Source: Russula earlei (Eukaryota; Basidiomycota; Agaricomycetes; Russulales; Russulaceae). Taken from it: a stretch of 64,000 nt of DNA. The first letter of the stretch is position 1, and each line of letters starts with the position of its first letter. Position numbers and translations under genes: made by a program. Where the stretch lies: assembly GCA_025769875.1 (NCBI GenBank), contig JAGFNK010000069.1:62001-126000 (forward strand), given 5' to 3'. Positions 12,703 to 62,483 of this stretch are shown here, one piece after another. The notes under the pieces were generated by a model. It made no database searches, was not told the DNA's origin, and saw only the letters and a list, made by a program, of their open reading frames with translations.

Positions 12703-13814
12703 TCAGTGGCCCTGGTTGGAAAGCCACTGTAGTACGATATCCCTGTGCGACATTTTCAGACTGAACCGCACCCGAGGCATGGAAGACCTACAGATTGTGT
12801 TGGCTTTTCATGGAACACTGAATGCAGTCGTAAGCCACGGGATTCAAATCCTCGACCCGGTCAGAAGTACCACGTACTGAATAGCACTATGTCCATAGGT
12901 TGATTAGTTGTTTCTGTATAAAGCGCGAATACCTACCGAGACCGCCCGTCCAGTTATCTTATTGAGTTGTCTGAAAGGACCGGTCATATGTGTGTGTGGT
13001 ACGAAACAAGTTCACTTACAAGGCCCGTATCAAGCCTTGCACGTCTGTATGGCCATGAATGTCATTCTTGTTACCCAGCTGGTGGACGTGAGCCTATCGG
13101 AACACGACACAGATAGGCGTTACTGACCACGAGGAGCGGAACCCCAGACAAGGCGGGCTGACCGAGAAGCGCGTGTAGTTCGAATCTTGCAGTCTCGAAC
13201 TTGTCGCGCTGCCGATGTTATTACGAGGCAGTCAGCCGTTATACGACGGCAAAGTAACGGGTGCGAACATACGTCAGTCGAATCTACCACGAAGCTTGGT
13301 GGCCGATATCAGCGGCAGTCGCGAAGAGAAGCGACATCTTCATACACTATGGCATCGACTCCATTGCAATAACGTTCCCACATCGAGCGAAACTTTGGTT
13401 GGCCTGTACAGCCACCGACACCTGATGGGTGATGAGGCTCGGAGATTGACGGGACATTCGCACCTGCTACATCCCATATTTTAAGGACAAGGTTTCCTTT
13501 TCTTACTTTGCGGAAATTGAAGGCTACAGTTGGCACGACGTCCTCACTCCACTGGGAGAAGGCGAGAGCAGTGAACGGAACGGCCCTGTAATTTCGGAGC
13601 ATAGAAGCATACCTGCCCCGAGCCGATGACATTCACGAAGGATGTCTTTCCAGACGCCTGAAAGTGACAGTGGGCGGGGCACGCAGTCATTGCGCCAGTG
13701 AGGTACTCACCTGTAAGCCGACAACAGCTATCTCGGCTGCTTTGGTGAAGAACAGACTGTGATGGTTGAGAGACGGCCTGCTTGATATTTATCTCGACTC
13801 ACCCTGTTATCCAT
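12703..13814 (-). CDS. ARL8: Arl8-family small GTPase
   Basis: Arf-like GTPase; in animals Arl8 sits on lysosomes and drives kinesin-linked positioning, and in fungi it is linked to vacuole and vesicle motility. The gene is split into about ten small exons. Starting at the ATG at 13814 (MDNR), the parts read: [26 protein letters not shown] (P-loop), [16 protein letters not shown] (switch I), [27 protein letters not shown] (G3/switch II), [31 protein letters not shown] (G4) and CYS (G5 region). The last exon gives [14 protein letters not shown] and the TGA at 12703. Every motif is present and all joins use GT..AG. No N-terminal glycine for myristoylation is present, as expected for Arl8. It is divergent from PET127 (140 bp between starts). 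Confidence 0.9.
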
Positions 13815-13954
13815 TGGAAAAAAGAAGCGAAGAATGGGGCCATTCAAGAGCTGCGCGGGAGTGGTGAAATGAAATACGCCCGGGCCGGGAACAGCTAAAG
13901 CCCATAAACGATTAGCACGCCGTCACGTTTTAAACCTCTTCTACTTGCGACCGA

Positions 13955-16900
13955 ATGCACCTCCCTCGATGCGCCGCCCACACTTACCACCGGGTTCACT
14001 ACCCATCATTGCGCGAGCTTCATTCAATGCACGCCTATCTACCCACGTCTCGAGGCGTCCGTCAAATAGACGGCAACTCTACAAATGCAAAAGTTGACTC
14101 GAAATCACCGTCTCCAGAGCACTCGCCGTCCAGGACCAACGGAAAAAGGAACAAGTTGAGAGCAAAGGAAAGAAATTCACTCCGGAAGGAAGCCTCCTAC
14201 AGACTGTCCTCACTGCTACAACGCCGTAGCAAGCAAGCCCGGTCGAAGCGTTCAGCTGAGGGAGTCGAGGGTGCGTTTTCTTATTTTTCATGGCTGTCTT
14301 CCCGAAATCGAGCTATTATAGATGAAGAATTATCTTTTCAATGCGCATCTACAAAGCGCGAAGGTAATCTCAATACTGGTGAGAAATTTGGCGTTTTCCT
14401 TTACCTTCTCCATAATGTGACTTTCCATTCGCTATCAGAACAGTCAGCTTCCAATGGTGATAAGAGGAATGCGCGCCGTTCGCACAGCTCATCACCCTAC
14501 TCACGTCGCGTAGACGGCGTAATCTCGCCACGTGCTAGCGATGCATTCTTCCTCCAAGGTAATGCACCCCTATCAGCCATCACCCTTACTCAACCTGCCT
14601 AGATGTTATTTCGCCATCTCCGCAGAGTCCCATTGCCACTTTGGCACATGGCCTGGAGCGCGTCCTTTTCAAGTAAGAATCCTGAGAACCGAGTCGATAC
14701 CTAATCGTTCAGTTGAACCCCTCAGTCCAGGAGTTCAGTGGCTGAAAGATCCTAGATCGCAAGTGTATAGTTTCTCAACTTGGCTTGAAACAATTATCCC
14801 TGTGACGAATTTCGCGTTTGAGCGTCTCCCAACTTTCAGGCCTAGCTCGCGTGATGAGGTTCGCAACGCCTCATTCACAAGAGATGCCGTTAACACCGCC
14901 CTTCCAGGATCTATTCGCCGTAGCACAACGCGAAGGTCGAAAATATGCTGGATCAACTTCATCTATGTCAGGTCTGCTTAGTCAAATATACTACCTTATA
15001 TCCGGCGACAAACACATAAATACATCAAATCTTAGTAGCAATTTCGCAAAGCAGGTAAGAATATCCAAAATAGCGCCTCGCGCCTCCCGTGTCTCAGCAA
15101 TCCTCCCTAGCCAAGAACATTCACACCAGCTCAAAGAAGTCCAGTATCTGTTGTATTGCACTATCGCGATGGTGTATACTCGGTGGACAGTGCAGGGGAA
15201 GCCGTCTCAGGCTCGTCAAGTAAAAATATTTTGACTTGGATGGTACGTAAACCCTTTTTCTGTTCCTTCTTTTCTGATATATTGGTGTAGGGGACTTTAC
15301 TAGAAAAATACCTTACACACCCTCCGGCAGACTTTTTACGACTAACCCGCTCCGCCGGAGATTCTGCTGTCGTGGCGCAAGAGCCTACGCGTGAGGCATA
15401 TCGATATGCGAAGGTGGGGTTTCATTTTGATCTAGTTCTTGCTTTCGCGTTATATTCCTTTACAGTCAGACAAGTTCATTTTGCGCTCACAACTTGACTG
15501 TTTTGATCGTCGCCTCCCCGGAACTGGAGTGTTTGATCTCAAAACCCGCGCCGTCATGTCTATACGACATGATCTGCTTAATTTCGAAGAGAGCTCCGGC
15601 TATCAGATCTGCACTCTCCAAGGTCTTGTTGAGAGCTTTGAGAAAGAATATTACGACCTCATACGATCTGCGTTCCTCAAGTACAGGTAAGTCCTTATCA
15701 GAATGGGTGGGAGAGCCATATCGCCTCATGAAACGCACAGTTTTCAAGCACGCATAGGTAATATGGATGGTGTCTTCGTCGCATACCACAACACAAAACG
15801 GATCTTCGGATTCCAATATATCCCATTATCCGAGATGGACGCTCGGCTTTTCGGGGACTCCGCCGCTGGCGACGCCGTGTTTGAAAAGTGTCTGCGACTT
15901 CTTGAAGTAGTATTGGAAGAAGCTACACGCGAACTTCCATGCCAGGTATGCTCACAACATAAGAGTCCTGACCATATCTAATGGTGCTACCTCCTAGTCG
16001 ATTCGTCTCACTGCAGAAAAACGAGAGGGACAAGACACCCTGAAGGTGTTCCTCGAACCTGCGGCCAACAATGAAGAAATTCACGGATCGATGCCCGTCA
16101 TCCAACTAGATGTGTCGATCAATAATTACATCCTTAAGGAGGCTGCCAGTGGTCCGAATGCCGTGAACAGATCGAAGCATCCCTGTATGTTACCCCCTCG
16201 AATAGTCTCTAAGCCTTCTGTACTCATCAGTTGTGTATCGTAGGGACTATACTCTGGTCGGTGTCCAAGTCGGCCCGTGACCCTGATGTCATACGCGATA
16301 ATCTCGCTGCCGCTCGTAGGCGCGCTTTTTTCCCATTTTACCTCCCGAAAGGGGTAGGTATACGGGAGATGGAGAGAGTCTGGCATGAAATGCAGTTTAA
16401 CCCAATCGCACCTGTTGACGTACCTTTTAAGGCCGAACTTTTCCGCACACCGCCGAAGAGTGTGCAAGTACTACGTCAACTCTCACGGAAGGGACGCGGT
16501 TACCTCGCACGGACTATACGCATGCAAATGGGTAGACCCAAGCTCGTAATAGGCCTTCCTAATGATGCTCAGGAGGTTGCTCCGTTGGTGGCGTTAGCTC
16601 ATGGGCTAGGTTTGGATCAGAGTGTTGTTAGAAGTGATGATGAGCGGCTCGATGACAGCACTGCCAATTTCTCCACTAAGTATAGTGGTCTTGAAGACGT
16701 ACAAGAGCCAGTCAAGGTATCAAATGCGTTGATGGCAAACGCAGTTACCAAGAACCAAGAGACTTCCCAGAAAGTTACGACACCTTCCATCATCGACGCC
16801 AGCGAACGACGAACGCTGATCGCGGAGCAGGAACAGGCCGCACGAAGTCAGGCCAACCCATTGGCGATCCCCTTTGCTGATGGCGACGATTTCATTTCAG

Positions 16901-53148: not shown

Positions 53149-54383
53149 AGCGCTGCCGCCGCATCCTGCCTACCTCCGCCGCCTTGCGCTTCCCCTCTCC
53201 TCCTCTCTTCCTGGAGGTCGCTTCCTGGAGGGAGGTGAGTGAGGCGATAGGGGCTTGAACCGGGATTGCCGTCATCGGTGGAATAATGGAATGGACTTCG
53301 ACACGAGAGGATGTGGATGGGTGGCTAGGTGTGCATGCAGCTGCGGCGGTGATGTGCTTCATCCATCCATCTCATTAGATCAAAGAGATTAGGTCCTTGA
53401 GCATTTTTTATTTTGGAAGGCAGTCCCCAAATCATGACCCCTCTTCCAATGGGCTGTACCTCAGCGTTGGAGGTACAAAGAAGTGATTCAGTTCTTATTA
53501 ACTAATGTTGGAATCCATCCACATGGCTGACAATTCATCAGGAAACTAGAGAGTGGGAGGCTTATTATTGCCGTTTTAAGCGAGCGCAGTTGGCGGAGCT
53601 TGAAAACCCACAAACAAATTCGTCACAAATATCAATTTCAATAAAACCTGACTCTGCTTAATGAGGGCTAGGGATTTGAGCAATATTTGGTGAAGCTGAA
53701 TGCAGGCAGCCTGCACATCTGTATGAGACAAATTACTCCCCTCAAAATTGCAGACATGGGCTGTGTTGAGACATTTGTTTTGTTTGACCCAAGAGTTATG
53801 TTATTCTCCTTGACTCATGGCGACGCGGCACCAGCCTCCATCGTAGCCTCGCCCACCATCTTCACTTCAGCACTGTCTGCCGTATCGCCAGCATCACCAA
53901 CATGCCAACCACCACTGTCACCTCAGCTTCCCCCACCCTGCCGTCTTAGGACCTGCTGAGCCAGCTGTCATCTCAGTCACTTCTGTCGCCGCCTCAGCTC
54001 TTTGTTCCATCACCACATCACCAGCACCAGCACCAGCACCAGCACTGCCACCCCAGCCATTTTAGCACCAGCCGTACAGCCGTCGTCTCGGAATTTGCCA
54101 GTCATTGCCTCAGCGCCATCCACCGCATCGCCATTATCGCCAGCCGCCACCACCTCAGCCCAAGCTGCCTTTCAGCACCGCCGCATCAGCCCTGCCCTCC
54201 GCCACAACCGTCTCAGCACCCTCTGCGCCTCCGCCTTCGCTTATGTCGCCAACCCTTGCCCCACCACCTGCCGTGTCGCCTCTGGCCCTGCTTGTCATTG
54301 CCACCTATGCCTGCATCTACGAACTCATGCCCATTGATCACCGGTCCTACATTTTCATTTTATTATAAAGATCACGAGTGGCA
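53149..54383. other. Gene-poor, Pro/Ser/Ala low-complexity sequence
   Basis: 1.2 kb without a supported gene. From about 53820 to 54340 it is CCA/TCA/GCC-rich repeat-like sequence that reads as Pro-Ser-Ala-Thr runs in several frames, similar in style to 55.5-56.3 kb. It leads directly into the STRAP pseudogene. Confidence 0.55.
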
Positions 54384-55456
54384 ATGTCAGCCCCGCAAAG
54401 AGCTGTGCCGCTCATCGCGCCAGGTCACACGCGCCCAATAGTCACCCGCCTATCTTTTTCTCCTCTTTTGGATGATGGCACGTACCTGCTTATATTTTGC
54501 TGCAAGGATGGAAACGCAAATGGATCGGGGATCGGATCGGCACCTTCGTCAGACATAAAGGCGCCGTTTGGAGCACCAAGCTCAGTCGTGATGGCTCTTG
54601 CGCAGCCTCTGGCAGTGCAGACTTTACGGCGTACGTCTCTCCATCGTATTTATGTACAAACTGAAGGTGTGCGGTCAGACTCACACCCCAGCTCTGCCCT
54701 GTTCTTTTGCAGTAAAATCCGGGATACGTACAGCGGGCAGATGCTTCACTCATTCCCGCACAATCACATCGTTCGCAGCATCGCGATCTCCCCAGATCCG
54801 TCGGCCAGGCGCTTGCTGACTGGCGGACAAGAAAAGAAGGTCCGAATCTTCGATTTGGGGAAAACGGATGCGGGGCCCGATGTTTTATCCGAGGGCGGTG
54901 GACAATCGCATGACGGCACAGTTGAGAGAGCATCGTGCGGCTCATGAGAATATCGGCGTGAGTGCGGGAGACGACGGGTTTGTCAAGTGAGTGTTCCTCC
55001 CTCCTGATGGTTTTTTTCTGATAGGTTGATCCGTGTGATGAGGTGGATGCATCCGCGCGCCAAGTCACTAAAAATATATTTTCTGACAACCCGATCACCT
55101 CGATGGAACTCTCCTCACCAACATAGCGACTCGTGACGTCTGGAAAGACTGCTAACTTCATTCCCGCACACCCCGCCGAGACACGCACGCCGACTCACAG
55201 CGTCAAGATGCCATACACTCCGCCCTCTGCGTCGGTCCACCCAATTCTCCAAGATCGCTTCGTCACTGGTGCTCGTCCACCGGATCAACGACGAGGAATT
55301 AGAGGTGCTCAAAAGTCATCATCACTGCGTCGAGTACAACCCGGATGAAGAGGTATATGCCAGTGGAAGCGGTGAGTGCAATGATGCCCATCTCGTTCGC
55401 TTTCGACTGAGGAAAATTTCCCACCACATTCTCTGATTCATCAGAGGACGGTATGT
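54384..55456 (+). pseudogene. STRAP-like WD40 pseudogene
   Basis: Remnant of the gene for STRAP/Unrip, a WD40 scaffold conserved in eukaryotes. The ATG at 54384 opens MSAPQRAVPLIAPGHTRPIV and [16 protein letters not shown] deletion near 54515-54540 shifts the frame; the expected sequence resumes one frame over as [19 protein letters not shown] former intron (GTACGT..GCAG) still separates it from the next block, which keeps DTYSGQMLHSFPHNHIVRSI and LLTGGQEKKVRIFDLGKTD. The conserved Lys-Val-Trp before it now reads K-I-R. From about 54920 more small deletions and stops follow. Later scraps are VTSGKTANFIPAHPA (about 55130), HPILQDRFVTG and LKSHHHCVEYNPDEEVYASG, ending at SEDG at 55456, where similarity stops. 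Kept intron positions argue for a DNA-level duplicate rather than a retrocopy. Confidence 0.82.
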
Positions 55457-56712
55457 TGGCCCTCTTTGATTTGATCAACTTGTGCTCACTGACGCCGCCA
55501 ACATGCCAGGACGCACCGCCATCTCAGGAGACATACCGCACGCTGCCTTCCCTGTTGCCTCCCCACTCACTCACGCGCCGTCGGCCATGCGTGCCATCGC
55601 CACCTCAGTTGGAGACGGCCACGGTGTCGTGGCCGAGACACAACGGCAAGAGCAACGTGCAAGTCGGGCTCGCAGCCCACCACCATTTCCTCCACTGCCG
55701 CCGATGCATTGCCCTCTCCCACCGCAGAAGGAACAGCAGCAGCCGCCTCACCGCCTCCCTCGAAACACCGGCTGCAGCCGCAACAACAATTTCAGCACCA
55801 GCAACAATGTCTGACCAAACAGCAACGTGCGACGACCAAGCCGCATGCACCTTCATGCGCGCACCATCCACTTCCCCGTCGACACACATGTTACCCACGC
55901 CTCCGGAGCCACGACGAGCCGCAGCGTGCAACGACGTCGACCGCCACTATCTGTTCTTCTTGCACAACGGAGGACCACCTGGCGCCACTGTGACACACAA
56001 CACCATGTTAGATTGCATCTGCATGTACGCCGCATTCCCCGCCTCATTATCACCCGCGCCGCCCACACCGCCCACGTCTCCTTCGCCGCGACTCGCTGCA
56101 GCGCGCCACGACGTCAGCTGTGTGCACTATTACTTCCTGCCCGACGGAGGACCCCCGATGGCCACAGCCCCAACAACATCACGCGCACGCACGACCTCAA
56201 GCCTCATTCGACCAGGGACTTCAATCCCCTGGGAGGTTTAAGGGAGGATTCCCGCTAGCCTTGGAATCACGCGCACGTCTTGTCATCGCCTCCCCTTTCT
56301 CCTCATGATTCTGCTGTGCCACCTATGCCTTATGCCACCTTCTCGTATGCCATGCCACTGTCTCTTTCTCACGCGTTCTCGACTCCATTTCCTGCTCCCC
56401 TTCCTTTCACCTCGTATTCTCCTTTGTGCTGCCCTGTACATCAAACTCTAGCTAACTTGAAGAATAATACTCTTTCCTGCAATCTCATCTGCCTGCCTGG
56501 AGACACCCTCATTGTTCTCGTGTCCATGTTCCATATTCCAGCTGGGTCTCGCTCCTCCCTCTTTTCTCCTTGGGTGTCCTCTGGGATAACAGGTCAGGTA
56601 ACCAGCCTTGCTAACTCACAATTGTGTCCTCCGGGATCACTACACCGAGACCGTGATGGATGATGGAGGGCAGGGCTCAGGCGGTGGCTGTGGCGGCTGG
56701 TGATGCTAGAGC
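55457..56712. other. Low-complexity, partly duplicated non-coding sequence
   Basis: Pro/Ser/Thr/His-rich in translation, with several overlapping long frames on both strands and no domain. A block at about 55890-55985 recurs in degenerate form at about 56080-56175 (both translate to ...D-x-GGPP.AT-like segments). No gene is supported. Confidence 0.5.
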
Positions 56713-57027
56713 AAAATTCGTGCTGAAATGACTTTTTTTTTGATTCTATATTACAAAATGTATTCGTAGTGCTATGTCGTTTGGACCCGAAAGTTTGTCA
56801 CAAAGTCAGTACTACCATACCACATTCGTGCCCTCCTCTCAATCCAAACCATACGCCACGAGTATCTCCTGTCTATAGGCGCGGTTAGCGAGCTCTTGGT
56901 GCCCACTTCTGGTAGCCACCCTGAAATTTATGTTCATTGTGACCACCTTAAAAATCGCCGTCATCTTCCGACGATCTGGATATGAACGGACGTGAGCGTC
57001 TCAGTATTCGTACACGTGAGAAATCGC

Positions 57028-57289
57028 CTACGTTTGTTTCTTCGAATGTGCATGATTTTCAAGCGCATTTGCCGCGTACCCACCCGCGAGGGCGCCAGCG
57101 AAAACCGCCTTTTTATAAACCCTTTTCTCAAGTGCTGGCTTTGCGTCTTGGCGCTCAGATCTATGAGGTAAAAGAAGTCAACTTCAGCAGGCAACAGGAG
57201 AGGTAAACATACAAAACAAGAGGAGTCGCGAATGTTGGAGCGATGCTGGTGGCGAAACAGAAAATGGCAATAACAGAGGAAGGACGCAT
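57028..57289 (-). CDS. Small secreted prepropeptide, copy A
   Basis: A 69-residue protein from two exons (57289-57213 and 57160-57028) with a 52-base intron (GTATGT..CATAG). Residues 1 to about 22 form a clear signal peptide: MRPSSVIAIFCFATSIAP, then TFATP. A short propeptide ends in EKR (residues 37-39), a Kex2-type Lys-Arg site. This would release a cationic peptide of 30 residues beginning VYKK, with an Ala/Gly-rich centre (AGALAGG) and ending HSKKQT. There is no cysteine in the mature part. A TATAAAG lies about 160 bases upstream of the ATG. Function unknown; secreted effector, signalling peptide or antimicrobial-like roles are all only possibilities. Copy B on the other arm confirms the gene model through shared splice sites. 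Confidence 0.75.
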
Positions 57290-57443
57290 GGTTGCAATAA
57301 TTGCGATCGTGGGTTTAAAACGAAATTCGTCAATTCGTGGTGGTTTGAAATAAAGTGTGGCTTGTTTGTAGGTATCCAGTACCTACGAGTATAAAGAAGT
57401 GAATGGGAGCGCGGCTGGAGAGCAGGTACTCTGGGCATTGGCT

Positions 57444-57450
57444 CTTTATA
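57444..57450 (-). promoter_or_regulatory. TATA box of peptide copy A
   Basis: CTTTATA on the plus strand, i.e. TATAAAG on the minus strand, about 160 bases before the ATG at 57289; conserved with 57969-57975. Confidence 0.5.
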
Positions 57451-57968
57451 CTTTTTGCCGAGTCCCGTCTTTCCGCTATTCATTTATTGCCATCAGCAAA
57501 TGTCCGGATTGGGGTGATTCCAATCCCATCTCTTTTACACAAGTGGTGATGCAAGGAAGTTGCGCGTTGATGCACCTATGATGCACCTACATTTCAAGGC
57601 TATTTGGAGCAGCGAGCGCGCACGCAAAGTCGTCTCACAAGTGGTGATGCAAGGAAGTGGCACGTTGATGCAACTATTGATTGATGGAAGAGGTCTCCGC
57701 TTTGATCGGTCTGAGACGACTTCGCGTGCGCGCTAGCTGCTTCACGTAACGCGTAGGTGCATCACGTGCCCGCATCACCACTTCTGAGACGACTTTGCGT
57801 GCGCGCTCGCTCGCTGCTCCAAATAGCCTTGAAACATAGGTGCATCATAGGTGCATCAACGTGCAACTTCCTTGCATCACCACTTGTGTAAAAGAGATGA
57901 GATTGGAATCACCCCAATCCGGACATTTGCTGATCAATGAATAGCGGAAAGACGGGACTCGGAAAAAG

Positions 57969-57975
57969 TATAAAG
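57969..57975 (+). promoter_or_regulatory. TATA box of peptide copy B
   Basis: TATAAAG 152 bases before the ATG at 58121. The other arm has the mirror copy at 57444-57450 on the minus strand, upstream of copy A. Confidence 0.5.
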
Positions 57976-58120
57976 AGCCAATGCCCAGAGTACCTGCTCT
58001 CCAGCTGCGCTCCCATTCACTGCTTTATACTCGTAGGTACTGGATACCTACAAACAAGCCACACTTTGTTTCAAACCACCACGAATTGACGAGTTTCGTT
58101 TTAAACCCACGATCGCAACC

Positions 58121-58376
58121 ATGCGTCTTTCCTCTGTTATTGCCATTTTCTGTTTCGCCACCAGCATCGCTCCAACTTTCGCGACTCCTCTTGTCTTGTA
58201 TGCTTACCTCTCCTGTTGCCTGCTGAAGTTGACTTCTATTACCTCATAGATCTGAGCGCCAAGACGCAACGCCAGCACATGAGAAAAGGGGAGAGAAAAA
58301 AATAGAACTCGCTGGCGCCGTCGCGGGTGGGGTCACGGCAAAGCAGATTGTAAAGCATTCGAAGAAACAAAAGTAG
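58121..58376 (+). CDS. Small secreted prepropeptide, copy B
   Basis: A 67-residue protein from exons 58121-58197 and 58250-58376; the 52-base intron differs from that of copy A at only two bases. The signal peptide differs at one residue (Leu for Pro at position 3). The propeptide keeps the Lys-Arg site at residues 38-39 with two changes before it. The predicted mature peptide has 28 residues, begins GEKK, keeps AGA-AGG and HSKKQ, but differs at about half of the aligned positions and lacks two codons. Frame, splice sites and stop are all kept. A TATAAAG at 57969-57975 lies about 150 bases upstream. No family recognised. Confidence 0.75.
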
Positions 58377-58891
58377 GCGGTTTCTCACGCGTACGAATAC
58401 TGAGACGCTCACACGTCCGTTCATATCCAGGTCGGAAGATGACGGCGATTATTAAGGTGGTCACAATGAACATAAATTTCAAGGTGGCTACCAGAAGTGG
58501 GCACCAAGAGCTCGCTAACCGCACCTACAGATGGGAGATACTCGTGGCGTATGATTTGGATTGAGAGGAGGGCACGAATGCGGTATGGTAGGACTGACTT
58601 TGTGACAAACTTTCGGCTCCAAATGACGTAGCACTACAACATTGAGATTGCATGAATACATTTAGTAATATAAAATCAAAAAAAAAAAGTTATTTCAGCA
58701 CGAATTTTACGCTTTTGGCTGCTTACCACAAATGCATGTCACGCGCCTTCGCGGTACCCCTACCCGACCGAATCATGCGGGGAAGGGGAGACATGGCTCG
58801 TCGGACACAAACCCTAACGGCGATCGCCATCATAAACCAATCCATATCGCACTATAAACGCAACGACGCTTCCCGCTAACTGACGAGATCG

Positions 58892-59890: not shown

Positions 59891-60198
59891 ATTCGGGGGT
59901 TCCCCGGCCCTTCATGGCAACTTTACATAACTAAATTGCCTTATCTGTCTGGCACCATTATCAAATGAAAAAATCTTTTTGAGCAGCTTGCCGCGAAAAG
60001 GGGTCATGCTGTGCTGTAACGTCCTCTCCTCTCCTCTTAGCTTTTGACTTTTAGCGGTGGGTTGGATGATCAAGAATTGCCATAAAAGGCGATTGGTCGG
60101 CAAGAGAATCGGGGGTTCAATCACGCATTAAATTACACATATAAGCGAGTTAACAGTAGCATAACTACTTACCTTTTTCCCTACCAAATCAAAAACAA
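59891..60198. other. Gap before the transposase, no gene seen
   Basis: About 300 bp between the truncated 5' end of the ALG7 remnant and the transposase start. It may contain the end of the MULE element, but no terminal inverted repeat could be defined because the other end is not in view. Confidence 0.5.
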
Positions 60199-61602
60199 AT
60201 GTTATCCCGTTTCCGATTGGCCGGCGCATCATCCGCCCCATCCGCTCCATCCGCCGCTTCCGGCCCGAGCGCCCCTTGCACGACACAATGTTTAAAGTTC
60301 ACGCATGCCCCTTCAAAGATCATTGCCAATTCTGGAAAGAGGGGAGATTTTAATTATGACCGGGAGCACGGTGGATACCCCATGGAATGGCCGACAGCAG
60401 CCGATTTCGACGCGTGGCGCCGGCAAGAAGAACTGGCTAATGCCATTGAATTGATTACATCCAGCACCGAGCATGGGCAGGGATGGACAAAAAAAGTTTT
60501 CGTCTGTTCCCGCCAACTATCCGGAGGAGCTTCGCGTTATGTAAAGAAGCACCCCAATCGCACACGGAGATCCGAGATCAAGAAGACGGGTTGCCGTTGC
60601 CGAATAGTCATCAAATCATACGCGGACGTGCCTACCATTCTCGGACAATACGCAAGCGAGCATGACCATGAAATTGGAATTGCTAATCTCGCTTACACAC
60701 GAATGTCATGCGTAGCGCGCGATAAAATTAGATCCTTGTTGTCAAGGAAGGTTGATCCACGGGAAATAGTAAGTGTGCATTGAATTTATTTTTAATCGCT
60801 AACCTAATGAATTGAAAGGTACGCGATATTCAGGATTCGTCGCCCAATGGCAGCTGAGACCAATTCATCTCGCTTCGGGATGTGAGCCGCATGGCCCGGG
60901 AAATTGAAGATAACAATATCAGGCTGCATCCAGAGCATGCCATCTCCACCAGGCTCTGGTTGGACAGATTGAGAGATGAAAATACAAATGTATTTTACAA
61001 AGATAGGCTGCACAGTGCCCCATCTCAGTCAAATCTGCAGGAGGATGCATATGTGTTATGCATCCAGACCCCTTTCCAAATGGAGGCATTCCGCCGCCTC
61101 AGGAACGGCTTCATCGGTATTGACGCAACTCATAATATTACTCAATATCCGGACTTTTTATTATTTACCATGATCGCGCGGGATCACTGGGGACATGGTG
61201 CGTAATATTTAGTAAATGTCAATTTAGCGCGCTTACCTTTTCCGGATAGGTGTGCCTGTTGCCTGGATGCTGGCATCCAATGGAACAACGGACACAATTT
61301 CCTTTTTTGTCCGTTGGGTCAGGGATGCCAGTCCGGCTATCCGGCCGTCTATTATTATGACAGATCGTGATGCCATGCAGATTGCCGCCCTCAAGATTGC
61401 TTATCCGGGAAGTCGGATATGGCTTTGCAAATGGCACGTGTTGCGCGCGATGCGATCACACTTCAATACAACCGAATTTCCTGATCTGTGGGATAAGATC
61501 AAGAGATGGGTACATACAGATGATCAGGCCAACTTTCTGCAAATCTGGGAGGAGATCTCCACTGATCCTCAGGTCCCACAAAGTTTTGTGAACTACCTTG
61601 GG
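60199..61602 (+). pseudogene. MULE-type transposase gene, nonsense-mutated and interrupted
   Basis: Transposase of the Mutator-like (MULE) superfamily. Exons: 60199-60768, 60819-61197 and 61250-61602. The N-terminal part holds a FAR1/WRKY-type DNA-binding module (ends TGCRCRIVIKSY, YASEHDHEIG; C and H ligands visible). The DDE core starts FRRLRNGFIGIDATHNITQY (first Asp), continues VPVAWMLASNGTTDTISFFV and IIMTDRDAMQIAALKIAYP (second Asp), and has the typical LCKWHVLRAM. A TGA at 60855-60857 interrupts the second exon where CGA would restore arginine. The reading frame is cut at 61602 by an LTR retrotransposon, so the third acidic residue and the C-terminus are missing from view. Inactive as it stands. 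Confidence 0.85.
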
Positions 61603-62483
61603 TGTTACACCATTTTCCTTTTACGTTTACTTCCTACCTTTTGCTACGGACTGCTTGCTTGCGTACGTCCCTTTACTTACTGATCTTGTGATTTCTTACG
61701 TCTTGTGATCCTTTCTGTGTTATCATGTGATCCATACACGTCCAGGTAACACTGGATTGCTGTTACTTTCCCTTTGTTTGGTTCTCTTTCCATTTATGTT
61801 CACTTCTTAGTTTCGACTGTGCAATGCTGCACACCTACTGTGCAGCACAGTTACTTGGTTCTGACTCATTCGTGGCCTCATTCCTATGACTCCTACTTAT
61901 TATGACTCCTACTATACTAGTAGCACAGTCAAAGCGCAGCTATTGCTGTGCTTCTCCTGTATATATAAGCTCAGTACTTTGTGACCAAAGCCCTAAGCTT
62001 GGTCTCTTGTAGAATCCAACCTACTCTTGTCCAACATATTCGCCTGCAACCCACTTCACTCTCACAAACTTAACTCACAACCACCTCTCCATTTCATCAA
62101 CTCTTAACACACCATCCACCATCTACTCTTCGCCTTTCCCTTCCTTCCCTAAGAGTCTCTCTTCACTCTCCTGAGAAGAGCTCTCCTCCTTTAAGACCTA
62201 CCTTCCTCTACTCTCTCTGCGTTGTTCAAGGTCCCAACGGACTTGAACGCATATAGCTAGTGGAACCAGCCCTAGTCTATCCCATTACAAACTTACCCTA
62301 GCTTCTCAACGGACCGAGTCGTACTAGGAAGGGTCTATTGGCCATAACCTGTTTAGCATAAAACACTTCGACCGCTGCAGGGATCCTTACTCACTATACA
62401 CGGGAACCAGCCCGTTTCTTGAACACATCTCTATCATCGACTTGCTTTCTGCTTGTGAACTGACACGGCTAGTTACCGTGACA
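61603..62483 (+). repeat. 5' LTR
   Basis: Begins TGTTAC and ends GTGACA (imperfect inverted ends, TG..CA). It contains a TATA box at 61960-61968 and the predicted transcript start near 61995. The right edge is inferred from the CA end just before the primer-binding site, since the 3' LTR is out of view. Confidence 0.72.
61960..61968 (+). promoter_or_regulatory. LTR TATA box
   Basis: TATATATAA, 35 bases upstream of the AAGCTTGGTCT segment that pairs with the primer-binding site. Confidence 0.65.

Follow-up and report, generated by a model that had tools for sequence, protein, structure and literature searches.

Inverted gene pair in Russula earlei points to a large, fast-diversifying superfamily of putative secreted proteins

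Russula earlei is a basidiomycete of the Russulales; its genus is ectomycorrhizal and among the commonest root-partner mushroom genera. We analysed a window of 64,000 nucleotides of its genome (assembly GCA_025769875.1, contig JAGFNK010000069.1, positions 62,001 to 126,000; coordinates below are those of the window), in which a preliminary description had reported two arms of about 940 bp in opposite orientation, each with a small gene. Using blastn, we compared the reverse complement of the left arm (56713..57650, minus strand, 938 bp) with the right arm (57772..58708, plus strand, 937 bp): 857 of 962 alignment columns were identical (89%, E=0). Between the arms lies an asymmetric centre of 121 bp (57651..57771), which contains diverged pieces of the arms' promoter-distal region (repeat families D1, D3, I6, I7 and I11). 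Each arm contains one open gene, and both genes are transcribed outward, away from the centre. Over the aligned noncoding bases, 3' region included, the arms differ at 27 of 677 positions (4%) and in addition by several indels. The repeat is therefore not a fold-back copy of a single molecule created in assembly, nor did it arise only very recently.

The TATA box, signal-peptide-like start, 52-nt GT..AG intron and Lys-Arg (KR) site ascribed to each arm were all found. In the left gene (minus strand), exon 1 (57213..57289, 77 nt, ending in phase 2) encodes the putative signal peptide and has the same structure as in NCBI models P0001, P0002, P0003 and P0019; it is followed by a predicted intron 1 (57161..57212, 52 nt, GT..AG) and a hypervariable exon 2 (57032..57160, 129 nt, with Lys-Arg at 57121-57126). 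The corresponding parts of the right gene (plus strand) are exon 1 at 58121..58197 (putative signal peptide, 77 nt), a predicted intron 1 at 58198..58249 (52 nt) and a hypervariable exon 2 at 58250..58372 (123 nt, with Lys-Arg at 58284-58289). In the preliminary description both genes ended at a TAG stop codon and encoded a short cationic peptide. That TAG proved to be part of the donor of a second intron. The NCBI models of four related genes, on contigs C327 (C327b, P0001; C327a, P0019), C36 (P0002, marked partial) and C430 (P0003), have intron 1 at the same place plus a second intron, and they read across the supposed stop junction into another exon; because these homologues have a second intron, we placed one in the arms as well. 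Splice sites assigned by homology are donors GTAGGC, preceded by AC in the left gene and by AA in the right gene, and acceptors CATATCCAG. The left gene then has a predicted intron 2 at 56976..57031 (56 nt) and exon 3 at 56948..56975 (acidic tail SSEDDGDF, stop TAA), the right gene a predicted intron 2 at 58373..58430 (58 nt) and exon 3 at 58431..58455 (acidic tail SEDDGDY, stop TAA). The two arms are predicted to encode three-exon proteins of 77 (left) and 74 (right) residues with C-terminal ends ...SKKQTSSEDDGDF and ...SKKQKSEDDGDY, respectively. A simple reading of the genes truncates them at the second intron.

Because the second intron had been missed, both the end and the charge of the peptide had been given wrongly. 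With the corrected acidic tail, the part downstream of KR is near-neutral (net K+R-D-E charge -1 on the left and +1 on the right), and the cationic peptide was rejected. Residues 7-20 have a mean hydropathy of 1.86 in both arm proteins, and there is no Cys after residue 21. Dibasic sites are KR at residue 38, KK at 42, and KK at 66 (left) or 64 (right); the segments between them, read by eye, are all different. A Gly/Ala-rich hydrophobic stretch is present in both arm proteins, in those of C36 and C327b and in a metagenome protein, P0004 (see below), with none clear in C881a and C430; such a stretch makes a membrane-active peptide possible. The four other distinct proteins of the subfamily described below are basic overall after residue 21 (isoelectric points 9.5-10.0).

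Upstream of each coding region there is a TATAAAG box (left, 57444..57450, minus strand; right, 57969..57975, plus strand), located within a stretch conserved among the 32 aligned rows described below. It is followed by the CTCCAGCTGNGCTCCTATTC motif (left, 57401..57420, minus strand, 2 mismatches; right, 57999..58018, plus strand, 1 mismatch) and by the element GGTACTGGATACC in the 5' leader (left, 57371..57383, minus strand; right, 58036..58048, plus strand), which is the superfamily form GGTACTGGTTACC with one base changed. The CTCCAGCTG motif is present in both arms.

Employing the left arm as a genome query, we found relatives besides the right arm, with E down to 2e-159. A 35-base signal-exon pattern was built from the known copies and run against the whole genome at no more than 3 mismatches. 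It matched eight sites, namely the two arms, one site each on C36 and C430, and two each on C327 and C881; a control gave 0. Identity between C327 and C881 was 99.3% and 99.6% in the two stretches fetched. These contigs probably represent two haplotypes, and we therefore count the eight copies as six distinct genes. This six-gene subfamily, like the larger superfamily to which we turn below, had been missed in the preliminary description. Intron 1 is 49 or 52 nt long in the eight copies, and both introns are in phase 2 in seven of them, the eighth being frameshifted in exon 1. In the six distinct genes, exon 2 measures 129, 123, 159, 63, 99 and 108 nt, all multiples of 3, and intron 2 measures 56, 58, 63, 70, 56 and 69 nt; the ends of exon 2 agree with NCBI models in four of the six. 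P0002 and P0003 carry one more exon after ...NQK, and the arms have an in-frame TAA earlier than that point; because of this extra exon, the C-termini of the C36 and C430 genes are uncertain. Retention of intron 2 would meet an immediate stop, from a phase-2 donor GTAG or GTAA, in five of the six genes, and would therefore release a peptide without the tail.

The preliminary description had taken the locus for a setting of fast-evolving genes, and comparisons within the subfamily, between the arms and across the superfamily agree that the part predicted to be exported changes fast. In the 15 pairs among the six genes, identity over aligned bases was 86-98% in intron 1, 82-96% in intron 2 and 66-85% in exon 2; intron 2 of the left arm alone was 84-96% identical to those of the five other genes. 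When all columns including indels were counted, the values were 83-96% for intron 1 and 66-93% for intron 2, and exon 2 fell to 29-55% outside the arm pair (78% within it). Intron 2 lies behind exon 2 in all six genes, so that within the subfamily exon 2 was changed in place. Between the two arms, residues 1-30 differ by one nonsynonymous change. From residue 31 to the end, 22.8 nonsynonymous changes in 101.7 sites compare with the 27 of 677 noncoding differences (odds ratio 7.0, Fisher p=2.8e-9), and the nonsynonymous (dN) and synonymous (dS) divergences are 0.267 and 0.112. No template copy of exon 2 of the left arm, the exon that the search covered, was found among 17 genome match rows.

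A locus on contig C455 has promoter, leader and signal exon in common with the left arm, in a weaker match (71% identity to the promoter side, E=7e-7). A genome search with this locus gave 44 match rows at 40 places, including two copies of the query itself; of 96 candidates, 40 were scored. We counted such loci with three genome patterns, each checked with a reversed-pattern control that gave 0. The signal-exon pattern (no more than 3 mismatches) had 149 matches, the 20-base leader-motif pattern (no more than 2 mismatches) 108, and the start-region motif (CTCCAGCTGNGCTCCTATTC, no more than 2 mismatches) 99. Among the matches listed (100 of 149, 100 of 108 and all 99, respectively), the union of the three patterns comprised 225 loci on 174 contigs, haplotype copies included. 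The 100 signal sites listed were spread over 87 contigs; 53 of them had the promoter motif 96-187 nt upstream, and none had it downstream. Four loci found by a motif only were fetched, and all four carry a signal exon of the same type. Within the window, two signal-exon patterns matched nothing besides the two arms. Both arms have the features by which we define the superfamily: promoter and leader motifs upstream of the signal exon and, behind that exon, an intron in phase 2 that is 49-58 nt long. Twenty-five members are annotated in Russula earlei, all as hypothetical proteins (P0001-P0003 and P0005-P0026). Four of these models (P0007, P0018, P0019 and P0022) look wrong in that the upstream leader is translated as protein, and three others (P0017, P0023 and P0024) in that intron-1 sequence is kept as coding.

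To locate what is constant in these genes, we aligned 38 rows (30 fetched loci and the eight subfamily copies) and dropped six at 97% identity or more, leaving 32, with the probable haplotypes L062 and L063 both kept. Conserved stretches began about 340 nt before the ATG and ended near +130, conservation being weak at around -300 to -241 and again at -200 to -181; they hold the TATA box, CTCCAGCTGCGCTCCTATTC, CTTGGTACTGGTTACCAACA, CGACTTTCATTTTAAATCGA, the signal exon and the intron. We then measured identity in 26 loci with a placed intron (49-58 nt, partly placed by hand), namely the six subfamily genes and 20 of the 30 fetched loci, hand-picked from the loci whose spliced frame reached 55 residues or more. 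L050 and L069 were left out as having no such frame; the probable haplotype copies L041, L044, L051, L063 and L067 were also left out, as were L052, L054 and L064. Median identity over the 325 pairs was 57% upstream, 67% in exon 1, 65% in intron 1 and 50% in the first 100 nt past intron 1 (which in C881a extend into intron 2). The last value equals that of shuffled letters (50%, 95th percentile 55%), and this stretch was less identical than intron 1 in 318 of the 325 pairs. Because the C455 query also spanned DNA past intron 1, the loss of conservation there in the aligned rows is not caused by the choice of query. Farther downstream, homology resumes in the same orientation in L055/L057, L054/L064/L065/L068 and L058/L066; other downstream matches resemble dispersed repeats, for example L045/L053 in opposite orientation.

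Two further comparisons bear on whether these loci are genes. In exon 1 of 14 loci (91 pairs), the proportion of nonsynonymous differences (pN) was 0.235 and that of synonymous differences (pS) 0.319; pN was below pS in 79 pairs, and second codon positions differed least. Intron 1 could be placed by motifs alone in 16 of 25 loci, with phase 2 in 15 of the 16, and the frame past this intron had a median of 85 open codons, as against 30 and 15 in the other frames.

The remark that no described family with this peptide is known was supported. Pfam gave nothing above cut-off for 16 proteins (six one-intron subfamily models and ten database proteins, including P0019 and P0004); the matches below cut-off had E values of 0.038-0.2, the closest for the right arm being TMEM70 (E=0.13, one-intron model). 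A profile of the corrected models found 0 matches in the PDB, and no title or abstract opening listed by searches of open-licence papers described the family. A protein search with the left arm had one match, a Russula earlei hypothetical protein. The preliminary description had also tied its reading to conserved homologues in related species, and this held in part. P0004 (120 aa), encoded on a metagenome contig from JGI with 1,234 bases, scored E=7.8e-5 against the subfamily profile; it is a distant relative and the only one seen outside Russula earlei. It reads unbroken across the place of intron 1 (...ILSER...), as the product of a spliced transcript would, so that its source may be a transcript assembly. 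In another named species, no relative was found by a protein search that needs shared 5-residue words.

Taken together, these comparisons describe a large, domain-less family of hypervariable and probably secreted proteins that was seen in one named species and whose expression-and-export unit is conserved. Our favoured explanation, which we hold to be likely but with real reserve, is that the two arm genes are an old head-to-head duplicate pair in a six-gene subfamily, itself part of a co-regulated, fast-diversifying, outward-facing superfamily of secreted proteins with about 150 to 225 loci, haplotype copies included, directed at hosts, microbes or rivals. In the members compared, the constant unit comprises the TATA box, leader motifs, signal-peptide exon and phase-2 intron; behind it comes the putative exported part, which diversifies fast. 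The shared promoter motifs suggest that a common regulator could switch many members on together. The signal peptide would export the product, and a kexin-type protease may cut the arm proteins at KR; the released peptide of 35-38 residues, with its Gly/Ala-rich hydrophobic stretch and acidic tail, would act outside the cell. In exons 2 and 3 of the arms, the excess of amino-acid replacement over noncoding change fits a role as antagonist or in recognition. Candidate roles are those of an effector where fungus and root meet, of an antimicrobial peptide or of a self/non-self signal; we favour an outward-facing arsenal and do not choose between root and microbial targets. To our knowledge, little is known of how Russula deals with roots and soil microbes. 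If the explanation is right, a sizeable part of the Russula earlei secretome would come from one co-regulated family of some 150-225 loci, in which a uniform export unit carries a hypervariable payload. The three DNA patterns provide a handle for counting such genes in any Russula genome. It is distinctly unlikely, in our estimate, that the superfamily goes further and works as a diversity generator, with the unit at some 150-225 places, exon 2 altered in place much faster than its neighbouring introns, everything else kept uniform, and a different peptide set in each individual under one switch. Since no template copy was found for the left arm, changes in exon 2 would then come from local mutation, indels and selection and not from cassette switching.

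Several observations weigh against the favoured explanation. Neither arm gene appeared among the annotated proteins that the protein searches found, and a second named species yielded no relative at the sensitivity given above. The constraint on exon 1 is mild, and within the window's own subfamily purifying selection on exon 1 is not visible (8 of 15 pairs). The frame past the motif-placed intron differed from the other two frames at Wilcoxon p=0.16, which is weak, and p=0.004. AlphaFold, run on P0002 with four sequences, returned no usable fold (mean predicted local distance difference test score 49.8). The second-gene copy on C881 (L011) has a one-base deletion in exon 1 relative to C327, and its frame closes after 31 residues; this is either a null allele or a sequencing error. 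In the 250 nt past the stop, 13 of the 15 subfamily pairs were 46-54% identical over all columns, whereas C36/C430 reached 70% and the arm pair 81%. Because this region is also diverged, exon 2 is fast relative to the promoter, exon 1 and the introns, but not relative to everything. In the arm pair, dS rests on 3.2 synonymous changes and the differences cluster behind KR; with such clustering, an apparent signal of selection could also come from mosaic exchange with a paralogue not seen here.

An alternative is that the superfamily is a dispersed secretory cassette, a promoter-signal-intron unit copied to many genomic sites, with decaying or accidental exons behind it, mostly unselected sequence read by chance in a process of new-gene birth and death. 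In its favour, the listed loci are scattered through a transposon-rich genome (the 100 listed of 149 signal sites fall on 87 contigs), the stretch past intron 1 lies at the shuffled null and stays at background up to the end of the 32-row alignment (+239), the frame test is mixed, three annotated models (P0017, P0023 and P0024) keep intron-1 sequence as coding, and several downstream matches resemble dispersed repeats. Against it stand the intron 2 behind exon 2 in all six subfamily genes and the same-orientation homology that resumes in some other pairs, in both of which exon 2 thus changed in place, as well as an exon 2 length that is a multiple of 3 in all six; and the excess in the arms lies in nonsynonymous sites, unexpected for neutral decay. 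We regard this explanation as unlikely, though it deserves serious weight. Relaxed constraint with homogenisation appears very unlikely; here gene conversion would maintain the likeness of promoter, signal exon and introns, and exon 2 would drift free of positive selection. That intron 1 is conserved almost to the level of the signal exon (65% vs 67%) does suggest block copying in place of purifying selection alone, and some cassettes, such as those of L055/L057 and C36/C430, are near-identical although their exons 2 differ. Drift, however, cannot exceed the noncoding rate, and nonsynonymous change in the arms has 7 times the odds of noncoding change, unless the noncoding parts are themselves kept together by conversion; conversion tracts ending at the edges of exon 2 in many pairs would moreover need an explanation of their own.

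The remaining two explanations concern the inverted repeat itself. The preliminary description saw in the palindromic layout a possible source of hairpin RNA, gene conversion or copy-number change, and the arms are indeed 89% identical and 121 bp apart. That the repeat is the functional unit seems extremely improbable to us: the listed superfamily loci are dispersed, there is no inverted copy within the 3.3-5.5 kb fetched around the other subfamily genes, and exon 2 of the arms is diverged, not homogenised. The two transcripts lead away from the centre, so neither need read the opposite arm, and hairpin silencing from the arms is unsupported. As for a mirror arrangement created in assembly by a fold-back read, near-identical inverted copies do occur elsewhere in the assembly (99.7% on C455; equal-scoring opposite-strand copies on C791), but the 27 differences in 677 aligned noncoding bases and several indels between the arms are impossible from one fold-back molecule, and we practically discount this origin. 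The C455 case (L015, L040 and L041; C455:36499-40503) is a second superfamily gene that occurs twice in inverted orientation, almost without differences, close to a self-inverse stretch of 1 kb. The exon 2 reading frame is not the same in its two copies, and the pair may be an assembly fold-back artefact.

Parts of this organization recall known peptide systems. Conotoxins and frog antimicrobial peptides combine a conserved signal part and introns with a fast-changing mature part and an excess of replacement change. The superfamily resembles them in its constant signal part and introns beside a fast-changing exported part, with no kinship claimed; the arm proteins differ in that they lack a cysteine framework, are fungal and have no known activity. 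The MSDIN precursors of Amanita are not known to have a signal peptide, and their core, fewer than twelve residues long, lies between constant flanks. They too form a large mushroom family with a constant leader and a variable core, whereas the arm genes have a signal-peptide-like start and a long variable part. Like mycorrhiza-induced small secreted proteins (MiSSPs), the arm proteins are short (74-77 residues), lack a Pfam domain above cut-off (one-intron models) and have a signal-peptide-like start that suggests secretion, and the superfamily is seen in one named species of an ectomycorrhizal genus. MiSSPs, however, are defined by induction in mycorrhiza, and the arm genes are known here from sequence alone; in the parts of the MiSSP literature available, no superfamily of such size with a common promoter-signal-intron unit is described, and a Lactarius paper reports only 22 MiSSP genes for L. 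deliciosus. With KEX2-processed repeat proteins (KEPs) and dikaritins, the arm proteins share the signal-peptide-like start, dibasic KR/KK and at least two KEX2-type sites. KEPs require repeated core peptides between KEX2 sites (PMC9769878), and the arm proteins have no repeated cores. In some other superfamily members (the L055 and L061 models and P0018), the predicted exported part does contain internal repeats, such as units around SGSRRGRG, and looks KEP-like.

The transposon-rich setting given for the locus was borne out. On the left, a multicopy repeat with a WD40 fragment (54350..56709) is broken off at 56709, beside the inverted repeat; its copies in C791 and C60 continue into other DNA, and a search with the right flank listed no match on C791 or C60 at the junction. 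Two equal-scoring copies of the left-flank repeat lie on opposite strands at C791:7294-9762 and 13661-16129, possibly as a fold-back. To the right of the inverted repeat are a MULE transposase and a Ty3-type gag; the MULE-type transposon piece (60039..61605, plus strand) has many copies, most of those listed being 89-99% identical. Near this repeat-rich strip of the window, an open stretch at 51293-51853 matches DAHP synthetase I (Pfam E=1.1e-50) and represents an ordinary metabolic gene or a fragment of one.

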